A stretch of 56,994 nucleotides of DNA from NCBI GenBank assembly GCA_007693965.1, contig RECQ01000039.1:1-56994 (forward strand), read 5' to 3'. Positions 23,998 to 27,547 of this stretch are shown one piece after another; within the stretch, counting starts at the first letter, position 1; the number at the start of each line of letters is the position of its first letter. The notes beneath the pieces are model-generated. The model did not search any database. It was not told the DNA's origin and worked only from the letters and a program-made list of their open reading frames with translations. Made by a program: the position numbers and the translations under genes. This DNA is from Phycisphaeraceae bacterium. Its GTDB lineage: Bacteria; Planctomycetota; Phycisphaerae; Phycisphaerales; UBA1924.

Positions 23998-25251
23998 ATG
24001 CGCCTCTCCCAACGCGTCCAGTCGCTCAAGCCGTCCTCCACCATCGCCGTCACCACCCGGGCCAGGCAGCTCAGGGCCGAGGGGGTGGACGTCCTCTCCT
24101 TCGCGGCGGGGGAGCCGGATTTCGACACCCCGGAGCGGATCAAGAAAGCCGCCAAGGCCGCCCTGGACTCAGGGATGACCAAGTACACCCCAATCCCCGG
24201 CGACCCCGAGACGCGGGGCGTCATCGCCCGCAAGCTCACGGAGGAGAATCGGATTCCCGGCCTGACGCCCGAGCACGTGGTGATCTCGTCGGGTGGGAAG
24301 CAGTCGCTGTATCTGATCTTCCAGGCCCTGCTGGATCCGGCGGGCGGTCCGGGCGAGGACCCGCCGGAGGTCTTGATCCCGACGCCGGCGTGGGTGAGCT
24401 ACGGGCCGCAGGCGGAGCTGGCGGGCGCCCGGGTGGTGGAGATCCGCAGCGATGCGGAGTCGGGGTTCCGGATCCGGCCTGAGCAGCTTCGGGCGGCGAT
24501 CACGCCCCGCTCGCGGATCCTGATTCTGAATTCGCCCAGCAACCCCTGCGGCACGATGTATTCGCCGGACGAAATCCGGGCCCTGGCGGCGGTGGTCGAG
24601 GAGGCCGCCCGCACGACAGCGCCGGACCTGGTCGTCGTCACCGACGAGATGTACGAGAAGATCGTCTACGGAGGGATCGATCATTTTTCCTTCGGCTCGA
24701 TCCCGGCGGTCGCGGAGCGCACCATCACGGTGAACGGGCTGAGCAAGGCGTACGCCATGACAGGGTGGCGCATCGGCTACGCGGCGGGGTCGGGGGAGTT
24801 CGGCCTGCGCTTAGCGAAAGCCTTGAGCAAGCTCCAGGGACAGATGACGACATGCATCGCGTCGTTCTTCCTGCCCGCGATCCGCGTGGCCCTGACGGAG
24901 TGCGCCGACGAGGTGGAGATGATGCGCCGGGCGTTCGCAGCGCGGGCGGAGCTGATGCATGGAATGATCGGCACGATGCCGGGACTGGTGTGCCCGAAAC
25001 CGACGGGCGCGTTCTATGTCTTTCCCGATATTTCCGCCCACTTCGGCAAGACCAGCGCAGGCGACAGGCCCATCGCCTCGGCGGCGGACTTCGCGCAGGC
25101 GCTGCTGGATGAGCACCACATCGCGGCGGTGCCGGGTGAGGATTTTCTGGGATGCGGGCCGCGGTGCGTGCGCTTCAGCTTCGCGTGCTCGGAGGAGCAG
25201 ATCGAAGCGGGGATGAAGCGGGTCGGGGAGTTTGTGGCGGGGTTGGGGTGA
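23998..25251 (+). CDS. PLP-dependent aminotransferase, class I (aspartate aminotransferase-like)
   Basis: Cytoplasmic transaminase of fold type I, 417 residues. The N-terminal block LSQRVQSLKPSSTIAVTTRA, the FAAGEPDFDTPERIKKAA motif near residue 40, NSPSNPCGTMYS around 180, VTDEMYEKIVYGG around 215, the PLP lysine in NGLSKAYAMTGWRIGY (about residue 250) and the C-terminal RFSFACS carboxylate-binding Arg all match the bacterial aspartate/prephenate aminotransferase group. Exact substrates cannot be read; pheA is in this window but not adjacent. It is divergent from rpsO and seems leaderless. Confidence 0.93.
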   Translation: MRLSQRVQSLKPSSTIAVTTRARQLRAEGVDVLSFAAGEPDFDTPERIKKAAKAALDSGMTKYTPIPGDPETRGVIARKLTEENRIPGLTPEHVVISSGGKQSLYLIFQALLDPAGGPGEDPPEVLIPTPAWVSYGPQAELAGARVVEIRSDAESGFRIRPEQLRAAITPRSRILILNSPSNPCGTMYSPDEIRALAAVVEEAARTTAPDLVVVTDEMYEKIVYGGIDHFSFGSIPAVAERTITVNGLSKAYAMTGWRIGYAAGSGEFGLRLAKALSKLQGQMTTCIASFFLPAIRVALTECADEVEMMRRAFAARAELMHGMIGTMPGLVCPKPTGAFYVFPDISAHFGKTSAGDRPIASAADFAQALLDEHHIAAVPGEDFLGCGPRCVRFSFACSEEQIEAGMKRVGEFVAGLG

Positions 25252-25374
25252 GGGGGGCGTCGCTCGTGCGCGCCTTCACACGCCAGTTTCTTTGAGGCCG
25301 CGGGGGGATTTTCGCGCGGGGAGAGGAAATATTTCGCCGCGGCAGGCCCGCTGCACGAACACCCGGGCCGCCCC

Positions 25375-25380
25375 TATACT
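25375..25380 (+). promoter_or_regulatory. -10-like box of prfB, leaderless spacing
   Basis: TATACT, close to consensus, then CCCGCC, then ATG 25387. No Shine-Dalgarno is present. This supports the upstream ATG as the true start of the frameshifted gene. Confidence 0.6.
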
Positions 25381-25386
25381 CCCGCC

Positions 25387-26518
25387 ATGCACTTTGAAGC
25401 CCACCAGAACGTCATCGATGACCTTGAGGCGCGGATTTTAACGATCCGTGACTCTCTTTAACTGCGATGCCAAACTCTCCCGCCTCGGCCAGATCGAGGC
25501 CAAGATGGAGGCTCCCGACTTCTGGGACAGGCCGGACGAGGCCCGCAGGGTTGTCGATGAGATGAAGCTTCTCAAGGCCCAGATCGGGCCTGTCGAGAAG
25601 GTTCAGGAAGAGTTCGAGGACGCGAAAGTCGCCTTCGAGCTGGCCCGCGAGGCCGGCGACAACGACCTGCTCACCGAGGCGGATGAGCAGCTCTTCGACC
25701 TCTCCAAGCGGATGGACAAAGTCGAGCTGCAGTCGCTGCTCTCGGGCAAGCACGACCATCGCAACTGCTTTGTCACCATCAGCGCCGGCGACGGCGGCAC
25801 CGAGGCCAACGACTGGGCCGAGATGCTCTTTCGCATGTATCTCAAGTTCTTCGACTGGCAGCACCCCGAGTGGAAGATCGAGGAGCTGTCGATGCAGCAC
25901 GGCGTCGAGGTCGGCATCGACTCAGTGACGCTGCACGTGAAGGGGCCCTTCGCCTACGGCTATATGTCCTGCGAGCGCGGCGCCCACAGGCTCGCCCGCG
26001 TCAGCCCCTTCAACGCCCAGGGCAAGCGGCAGACCAGCTTCGCCACCGTGGATGTCACACCCGAGTTCGAGGTGACGGAGTTGGACATCCCGGACAAGGA
26101 TCTGGAGATCACCTTCTTCGCGCGGTCATCCGGGCCCGGCGGGCAGAACGTGAACAAGGTGGCCTCGGCGTGCCGCGTGGTTCACAAGCCGACGGGGCTG
26201 ATGGTCGTCTCCAGCACCTACCGCGAGCAGCCGCAGAACAAGAAGCAGGCCATGGAAGTGCTCATGGCCAAGCTGGAGCAGCTCGAGGAGGAGCGGCGCG
26301 AGAAGGAGCTTTCGGAGGCGACCGGCGGCGCCGTGGAGCGCGGCTGGGGCACGCAGATCCGCAGTTACGTCATCTACGACAACCGTGTGAAGGATCACCG
26401 CACGGGGCATGAGGTGGGCAATCCGCAGACGGTGCTGGACGGCGACCTGCAGGGGTTCATTGATGCGGAGCTGCAGCGGCGGCGCAAGGCGCAATCGGAT
26501 GCTGCGGCGAAGGCCTGA
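25387..26518 (+). CDS. prfB: Peptide chain release factor 2, expressed by +1 frameshift
   Basis: RF2 ends translation at UGA and UAA. The gene is in two frames: 25387-25458 (24 codons, MHFEAHQNVIDDLEARI...RDSL) and 25460-26518, joined by a +1 shift at CTT-T-AAC; the zero frame stops at TAA 25459. The product is 376 residues. Both parts align with E. coli RF2, including the junction (RDSL-NCDAK here, RGYL-DYDAK there). The stop-reading tripeptide SPF is near residue 205 and the catalytic GGQ near 251 (SSGPGGQNVNK). Two features are odd: the frameshift stop is TAA, not TGA, and no Shine-Dalgarno-like sequence lies just upstream. A separate start at GTG 25448 is possible but would truncate a conserved N terminus. 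Confidence 0.95.
25453..25463 (+). promoter_or_regulatory. Programmed +1 frameshift site of prfB
   Basis: The zero frame reads TCT CTT TAA; slippage of CTT to TTT gives CTT-(T)-AAC. The position is exactly that of the E. coli CTT-TGA-C site in the protein alignment. The upstream bases (ATC CGT GAC TCT) lack the AGGGGG-type stimulator. Confidence 0.85.
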
Positions 26519-26539
26519 TTCGACGAACGGGGTGGTTAC

Positions 26540-27547
26540 TCAGGGCGTCCGGCTCTCGGCATCGGCGTCGGCTGGTTCGGCCCCCTTCAGCTCGAGATCG
26601 AAGATCAGCCACGAGTTGGGGGGGATCATGCCGCGAGGCTGCATGCCGTAGCCGAGCCATGGCGGCACGATGATGCGGCGCACGCCGCCGGGCTTCATGC
26701 CGATGATGCCCAGGTTCCATCCCTCGATGTATTCGGCGGGCAGGGTCGTGCGGACCGCTTCCTCCCCTTGCCATTCGGTCGAGTAGAAGGCGTGGCCGGT
26801 CATGACATAGCCGGTGTAACCGACGCGTATTTCATCGCCGGTGCGCGCTTCCCGGCCATCGCCTTCGAGCAGGTCTATGGCCACCAGCCCGTTTTCGTGT
26901 TCGACGACGGCGGGCTCGTGCTTGAAGCGGCGGAAGGTCATCGTCTCGGCGCCCCAGGCGGGCTCGCCGCGGGCGGTCAGGCCGGTGGTGCGCCAGTCGA
27001 GGCGATCGCCTTCAACGGCGATCTCCATATCCAGATGATGCACGGCGCGCTGCAATGTTGGGAAGGGCGAGTCGGCCGCCAGCCTGATGGTGCGGCGTCC
27101 GACCTTGGCGCGCAGGTCGCCGACGGCGTACAGGCGACTTCGAGCGATGGGAGGGAACTTCTCGGGCGCCGCCCAGGCTCCTGTGAAGATTGCGCCGTAG
27201 TCCGTCTCAGGAGCGAACTCGCTCACACGGACATCCAACTCGTTGCCGACAAGATGCAGACTCCAGACCTGGCGCCATTGTGTATCCAGTGGATCGTCCG
27301 TTCGGATCATCTGGATGTAGAGCGACCGTGGCAGGTCGTGGACGGGCAGTTCGCGGATGTGGAGGGTGAAATCGTCGCTTTTCCAGGCGCCGGAGAGCAT
27401 TACGACAGCGGTCTGGACCTTGAGCCGGGCCTCCAGACCTGCGGCGATGCGATCGGGCGCTTCCTGCCCCGCCGCCGTTCCGACGCCGGCTGTGAGTGCG
27501 AACATGAGCCCCAGCAGGGCCGTAAGGTGGTTCGAGTTGGATTTCAT
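26540..27547 (-). CDS. Exported FKBP-type peptidyl-prolyl isomerase
   Basis: A 335-residue envelope protein. A signal peptide (MKSNSNHLTALLGLMFALTA to VGTAAGQ) starts at ATG 27547, chosen because TAGAGT lies 7 bases upstream and the earlier in-frame ATG gives no signal. Residues 25-225 are an uncharacterised beta-rich domain. The last 105 residues are an FKBP fold: GDEIRVGYTGYVMTGHAFYS, EGWNLGIIGMKPGGVRRIIV, GYGMQPRGMIPPNSWLIFDL. It likely assists folding of secreted proteins through proline isomerisation; whether every FKBP active-site residue is kept needs an alignment. It converges with prfB, 21 bases apart. Confidence 0.9.
   Translation of the reverse strand: MKSNSNHLTALLGLMFALTAGVGTAAGQEAPDRIAAGLEARLKVQTAVVMLSGAWKSDDFTLHIRELPVHDLPRSLYIQMIRTDDPLDTQWRQVWSLHLVGNELDVRVSEFAPETDYGAIFTGAWAAPEKFPPIARSRLYAVGDLRAKVGRRTIRLAADSPFPTLQRAVHHLDMEIAVEGDRLDWRTTGLTARGEPAWGAETMTFRRFKHEPAVVEHENGLVAIDLLEGDGREARTGDEIRVGYTGYVMTGHAFYSTEWQGEEAVRTTLPAEYIEGWNLGIIGMKPGGVRRIIVPPWLGYGMQPRGMIPPNSWLIFDLELKGAEPADADAESRTP

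Follow-up and report, generated by a model that had tools for sequence, protein, structure and literature searches.

prfB is the textbook bacterial +1 frameshift. In the window, by which we mean the whole analysed stretch of 56,994 nt, direct reading places the prfB ATG at 25387, from which 24 sense codons in the zero frame lead through CTT (25456 to 25458) to TAA (25459 to 25461) and then C (25462). The +1 frame restarts at 25460 (AAC TGC GAT GCC AAA, giving NCDAK) and stays open through 26518, and the open frame scores 400 bits against model TIGR00020, above the cut-off. The initial annotation had ended the zero frame at CTT-TAA after 24 codons and continued RF2 in the +1 frame, and both readings were borne out. 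The locus has the following features.

25375 to 25380, forward strand: -10-like hexamer TATACT, 12 nt 5′ of the prfB ATG (TAnnnT counts in family genes)
25387 to 25458, forward strand: zero-frame leader ORF of RF2, 24 codons, MHFEAHQNVIDDLEARILTIRDSL (an ATG exactly 24 codons 5′ of the site is kept at 147 of 189 class sites)
25426 to 25428, forward strand: GAG, a possible, less certain outer 5′ arm (three extra pairs by RNAalifold on 34 family rows)
25430 to 25436, forward strand: hairpin 5′ arm CGCGGAT (pair counts, column-pair ranking, third-position entropy)
25437 to 25443, forward strand: hairpin loop TTTAACG (fold of the window; variable third bases in the loop)
25444 to 25450, forward strand: hairpin 3′ arm ATCCGTG, overlapping the position of the E. 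coli SD-like element (pair counts)
25453 to 25455, forward strand: TCT, the predicted E-site codon when the shift occurs (codon counts, 86 family sites)
25456 to 25462, forward strand: shift site CTT TAA C, predicted P-site CUU slipping to UUU (+1) with UAA in the A site (direct read, family counts)
25460 to 26518, forward strand: RF2 body in the +1 frame, stop included (ORF read, TIGR00020)

By site, frame and stop, the window prfB belongs to the +1 frameshift kind, without the SD-like element. The idea that there is no frameshift here, either because translation starts at GTG 25448 or because the stop is an assembly error, strikes us as hardly credible. This GTG does lie in the RF2 frame, which puts the window among the 59 of 189 class sites with an RF2-frame start, but in the other 130 no such codon occurs between 16 codons upstream and 3 codons downstream of the site; a start at GTG 25448 was rejected as not conserved. 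The zero-frame peptide, moreover, is itself conserved, and in relatives that lack the stop it is fused to RF2 without a shift, as in L028 (relatives carry L-numbers as locus labels). An assembly error was likewise rejected, since relatives share the same stop.

We examined the site across the family (UBA1924) and the class (Phycisphaerae). In the family draw, prfB scored above the cut-off in 135 of 150 genomes, with 74 genera drawn, and 91 family loci were read (the window plus 30 plus 60). The shift site was found in 86 of these, as CTT TAA C in 67, CTT TGA C in 18 and GTT TAA A in one (L078); four of the others read through in frame with no stop (L014, L028, L044, L068) and one was cut by a contig end (L064). 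Thus, CTT TRA C stands at 85 of the 86 family sites, with the slippery CUU U and the C after the stop present. The E-site codon is TCT at 71 of the 86, TCG at 14 and TCC at one. In the rest of the class, 90 loci were read and 86 carried the site (10 TAA, 76 TGA), with none in L102, L122, L148 and L181. Loci L074 and L205 were added to the site set by hand, and rows L187, L199 and L200 (GTT or ATT before TGA) were left out as non-homologous sites.

Over the 172 class sites the stop was TAA in 78, TGA in 94 and TAG in none, though the parser allowed TAG; the stop is thus always one that RF2 can read. Among named planctomycetes, 17 relatives, for the most part MAGs of Phycisphaerales or Phycisphaerae, carry the hairpin, 4 with TAA and 13 with TGA. 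UAA is the majority state of the family: tabulating the stop in relatives, as had been proposed, gave TAA at 68 of 86 family sites and TGA at the remaining 18, so that the TAA of the window is not an error. In site, frame and conservation among relatives, it is what the initial annotation had described, the classic +1 site of prfB except that UAA replaces UGA. We note two observations at these loci. L078, with its degenerate GTT TAA A and one broken stem pair, could be a frameshift site in decay, or else reflect an error in the sequence. The release loop (26132 to 26161 in the window) reads GPGGQNVNKV at 86 of 86 family sites, and GAGGQHVN at 15 sites from other planctomycete classes.

The codons preceding CTT in the window are CGT GAC TCT. 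An SD-like sequence inside the gene that ends 3 nt ahead of CUU, usual but not universal in the motif, is missing there. The AGGGGG-type stimulator had been reported absent, and the weak SD:anti-SD duplexes agree with this. Computed duplexes averaged -1.0 kcal/mol (range -5.7 to -0.7) at the 67 family CGC or CGT sites with TAA, -4.3 kcal/mol at 56 class CGG sites with TGA and -6.4 kcal/mol (-11.8 to -2.9) at 15 sites of other planctomycete classes, as against -11.4 kcal/mol for the E. coli type. At the SD place, the 15 other-class sites read AGG GAC in 4, AGG GGG in 2 and AGG GAT in 1 (about 6 to 7 with AGG), with AGA GAC in 2, AAG in 2, CGG in 2 and other sequences in 2. A few class sites outside the family carry SD-like AAGGAC or AGGGAC. 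An altered anti-SD was rejected in relatives, where 6 of 6 family 16S genes carry the intact sequence; the 16S gene of the window's own genome was not found. Ordered by the outgroups, the likely path of the element ran from AGG (SD) through CGG (a weak SD inside the stem) to CGC (stem only).

In the place of the SD lies a 7-bp stem-loop. Numbered from the first base of the stop, with negative positions upstream, -29 to -23 pair with -15 to -9 around a 7-nt loop, corresponding in the window to 25430 to 25436 with 25444 to 25450, and the 3′ foot of the hairpin stands 5 nt upstream of CTT. In the fold of the window, the outermost T.G of the loop could lengthen the stem to 8 bp. The GAG at 25426 to 25428 may pair with CTC at 25452 to 25454 past a G.A mismatch, a less certain extension confined to the family. 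All seven pairs form at 84 of 86 family sites, the remaining two forming six, and at 59 of 86 class sites outside the family; of the other 27, 13 have six pairs and 14 fewer. In other planctomycete classes, by comparison, the full stem was found at 1 of 34 sites, namely at 0 of 15 in the phylum draw and at 1 of 19 (L375) in a later set that was not random, 8 of its 20 loci being covariance-model matches. None of the eight in-frame relatives, in which the positions compared were aligned by hand on the leucine codon, retains seven pairs; the best of them, L044, has six and folds to -12.2 kcal/mol, so the in-frame relatives are not structure-free. The stem has two main alleles, CGCGGAT/ATCCGCG and CCCGGAT/ATCCGGG, and the two wobble positions that distinguish them change in concert. 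Further paired variants are CGCGCAT/ATGCGCG, in which L016 and L038 exchange Ile for Met together with CGG for CGC and keep the pairing, and CGCGAAT/ATTCGCG (L221), with L177 of the latter type at six pairs. In five class members (L110, L114, L115, L119 and L133), a stem of the GAGCGTC/GACGCTC type is displaced upstream, ahead of an SD-like CGGGAC or AGGGAC. An Rfam scan of 24900 to 26700 gave no match above the gathering score, and a sub-threshold match to sX13 on the opposite strand was taken as chance.

We further analyzed the stem statistically. On 121 distinct class sites, 91.3% of the pair cells were paired, compared to 82.9 ± 0.7% in shuffles and 18 to 46% in slid structures, and cells changed on both sides numbered 70 versus 32.5 in the shuffles; the number of pairs with a double change, two, was no higher than in shuffles of these sites. 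Column pairs were ranked on 181 sequences by two measures, a pairing-aware score and corrected mutual information. Pair -28:-10, mostly two synonymous wobble positions, ranked 1 of 7,626 on both, and pair -25:-13 ranked 61st by the pairing-aware score and 9th by corrected mutual information, while the remaining five stem pairs hardly vary and showed no covariation, the best placed of them standing 249th on the first measure and 265th on the second. Tree-aware tests used a FastTree tree of 189 RF2 proteins. Position -28 gave 8 independent differing pairs, with -10 compensated in 5, opposed in 0 and without difference in 3 (p 0.0625), and at -25/-13 about 6.2 of 11 independent pairs were compensated and 0.4 opposed (median p 0.0625). 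The tree-aware support for covariation is therefore of the right sign but thin, neither pair being significant individually.

Synonymous shuffles of -35 to -7 gave a mean of -11.4 versus -5.3 kcal/mol in the family (mean z -2.6), with mean z values of -2.2 in the rest of the class and -2.5 in the named relatives. Taken singly, 101 of 181 sequences reached p ≤ 0.05, compared to 16 of 240 control blocks from the RF2 body (mean z -0.31), and z was -0.23 at 26 other planctomycete sites. The hairpin of the window by itself (-10.1 versus -5.4 kcal/mol, p 0.087) was not significant. Third-position entropy in the family was 0.09, 0.16, 0.00 and 0.54 at the stem codons -30, -27, -15 and -12, but 0.94, 0.78 and 1.43 at the codons with the third base in the loop (-24, -21 and -18) and 1.29 on average over 20 conserved RF2-body codons (minimum 0.79). 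Third positions are thus nearly frozen in the stem, whereas loop codons vary like the gene body. RNAalifold predicted no structure when given the full set of 121 class rows, perhaps because its penalty for rows that do not pair takes no account of how many rows there are. On 34 family rows, picked by taxonomy and not by pairing, it returned the stem at -13.9 kcal/mol, extended outward by three further pairs. A covariance model built for the site gave a single match in each genome matched, at 25423 to 25462 in the window; it matched 55 of 61 family genomes and, in the phylum draw, 9 of 9 class members and, more weakly, 8 of 140 others. One of the 8 non-class matches read carried the full stem.

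These numbers bear on the possibility that the bases pair only as a side effect of constraint on the protein and its codons, a palindromic ARI..IRD peptide spelled in GC-rich codons, which we hold to be very improbable. Such a reading would fit the conservation of RI..IR itself, the invariance of most stem pairs and the p of 0.087 for the window alone, but it has to contend with mean z values of -2.2 to -2.6 across the 181 sequences where the gene body gives -0.31, with wobble positions that covary while keeping the pairing, and with the joint Ile-to-Met and CGG-to-CGC changes of L016 and L038, which are still paired.

A stem with the same 3′ end is present in Cyanobacteria. In 20 named cyanobacterial loci, a different stem, CCTGGGT-3 nt-ACCCAGG, also ends at -9. 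A class draw of 77 genomes, 72 with prfB, yielded 70 sites that were read (G440 and G474 were left out), with CTT TGA in 70 of 70 and C next in 69. All seven pairs form at 62 of the 70 and six at the other 8. On 57 distinct sites, 98.0% of cells were paired, versus 94.1% in shuffles and 11 to 57% in slides, and two pairs changed on both sides; tree-aware tests had little power in this group. Synonymous shuffles gave z -3.3 for the 20 named loci, 17 of them at p ≤ 0.05, and z -0.09 in 22 other bacteria, 3 of which reached p 0.05. The cyanobacterial 3′ arm includes a weak SD-like AGGA, and because this lies inside the arm, the stem and SD pairing would be mutually exclusive. Separately, four Firmicutes prfB sites (L250, L256, L257 and L258, labelled Eubacterium, Lachnospiraceae and Clostridiales) use TAA; they have an SD-like AGGGAT run, and the stretch around it, e.g., AAGTGAGGGATTCACTT, is self-complementary.

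The UAA raises the question of what the site senses. The initial annotation had argued that, with UAA, shifting reports total release activity, that is, the sum of RF1 and RF2. Both factors read UAA and an RF1 homologue is present; its best prfA match (G000:C70:126-1205) reaches 356 bits where the NCBIfam cut-off is 423, and RF1 thus looks divergent in the window genome. TAA also holds 68 of 86 family sites, even though TGA ends 36 of 38 long ORFs of the window (a mechanical choice; the window is 66% GC). On the RF2 tree, however, the stop changes between TAA and TGA at least 16 times, with 13 independent differing pairs on supported branches, while the hairpin and the slippery site mostly persist, and UAA and UGA therefore look roughly interchangeable in this clade. 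Where the stop is TAA, -12 to -10 read CGC or CGT at 67 of 68 sites in the family and at 9 of 10 in the rest of the class, but this association of TAA with the SD-less stem allele does not reach significance when ancestry is taken into account on the tree. RF1, moreover, may be scarce in a TGA-rich genome, and evidence cited by Prince et al. (PMC12421855) indicates that UAA is perhaps read mainly by RF2 in most bacteria. The proposal of a rewired sensor is thus unsupported by the tree, and we judge it quite improbable. UAA might have been kept in this TGA-rich lineage by a weaker reading of UAA by a UGA-tuned RF2, or by the Asn that TAAC encodes at the site in place of Asp; both are possible. 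In the survey of Prince et al. (2025) (PMC12421855), TAA occupies 1.4% of 8,164 prfB sites and is reported as not broadly fixed within clades, and the SD as hyperconserved; the UAA majority in this family corrects the view that clades do not fix UAA. We also note that prfB frameshifting is kept in this lineage despite an apparently very high demand for RF2, contrary to a correlation published there (PMC12421855).

We consider it likely that this prfB is a working autoregulatory +1 site in which a cis-acting RNA hairpin has replaced the SD:anti-SD helix as the stimulator. The initial annotation had left room for a shift driven by other means, and the conserved, covarying upstream hairpin in the place of the SD favours this option. 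In known systems, a shortage of RF2 favours the slip from CUU to UUU over termination, and a nearby SD-like sequence stimulates it (PMC12421855, PMC5009743). Cho et al. (2013) note that the SD helix may sit 5 to 6 nt 5′ of the P site, overlapping the place where a hairpin refolds (PMC3639245). Since the stem ends 5 nt before CUU, as the SD helix or a refolding hairpin can, we infer that it acts as that helix and stimulates the shift; which way it acts, and that RF2 regulates its own synthesis here, are likewise inferences. While CUU occupies the P site and UAA the A site, the hairpin at 25430 to 25450 would refold behind the ribosome, its 5′ arm playing the role of the anti-SD strand. The 3′ foot of the refolded hairpin, 5 nt 5′ of the P-site codon, would then occupy the place of the SD helix, and the tight spacing would promote the slip of the peptidyl-tRNA from CUU to UUU. 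Scarce RF2 would lengthen the pause at the stop, and more RF2 would be made.

The hairpin could instead have been selected for another job, such as tuning how fast the prfB mRNA decays or how translation of a leaderless mRNA begins, or for restraining the shift by competing with a residual SD-like GGG. A TAnnnT starting 10 to 18 nt before the prfB ATG occurs in 49 of 85 family genes, versus 3% in shuffles, and this TATACT-like element so close to the ATG suggests that the prfB mRNA is leaderless in many family genes, a point in favour of this reading. In the CCCGG class allele, as in Cyanobacteria, the 3′ arm includes a weak SD-like run (about -4 kcal/mol), which would make hairpin and SD pairing mutually exclusive. 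Even so, the stem is retained in the family although the SD-like run is gone (mean -1.0 kcal/mol), its register to CTT is fixed to the base, the full stem is missing in 8 of 8 in-frame relatives, and the cyanobacterial stem ends at the same 3′ position. We regard selection for such another job as rather unlikely.

More broadly, and with somewhat less assurance, we think it probable that a second natural prfB stimulator exists, a cis hairpin whose 5′ arm replaces the 16S anti-SD. It would have arisen in one register in two phyla or more, with stems of different build in Phycisphaerae and Cyanobacteria, and in the lineage of the window it would have made possible the complete loss of the SD and the drift of the stop between UGA and UAA. 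If the hairpin swap is true, it would show that the shift depends on having a duplex where the mRNA exits and not on the rRNA itself, and nature would have supplied a test of models that let a helix behind the ribosome push it forward. Motif searches that rely on AGGGGG may misjudge SD-less prfB genes. In the open-licence literature, covered as partial texts, we found no natural prfB site for which an upstream hairpin is reported. The review of Atkins et al. (2016) (PMC5009743) treats the SD as the RF2 stimulator and the 5′ stem-loop of T4 gene 60 as a motor, and the parts of it covered here name no hairpin for RF2.

Compared to the E. coli-type prfB, the site agrees in its early stop behind CUU, the slip to UUU, the C that follows the stop, the +1 frame of RF2 and UCU (or UAU) in the E site, but it lacks the AGGGGG three nt before CUU, has a stem-loop instead and uses UAA in most family members. 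The closest engineered counterpart is that of Huang et al. (2018), in which a 12-bp hairpin replacing the SD at CUUUGA gave ∼60% of the +1 stimulation of the SD in E. coli lysate and was active only without RF2 (PMC6321510). There, as would be the case here, an exit-side hairpin mimics the SD helix, and stability and spacing matter (PMC6321510, PMC3639245); the engineered hairpins, however, are 12 bp in vitro or -1 attenuators, whereas the Phycisphaerae hairpin is natural, 7 bp long and conserved in prfB itself. The sites with TAA described by Prince et al. (PMC12421855) share the CTTTAA at the shift site but are reported as not broadly fixed, while here TAA is the majority state at the family level and the SD has been lost as well. 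In phage T4 gene 60, the 5′ stem-loop is likewise a natural stem that folds at the ribosome exit and is a proposed mover of the ribosome, but it serves bypass of a coding gap with no release-factor control, whereas Phycisphaerae prfB would use its stem for a shift of one base (PMC5009743).
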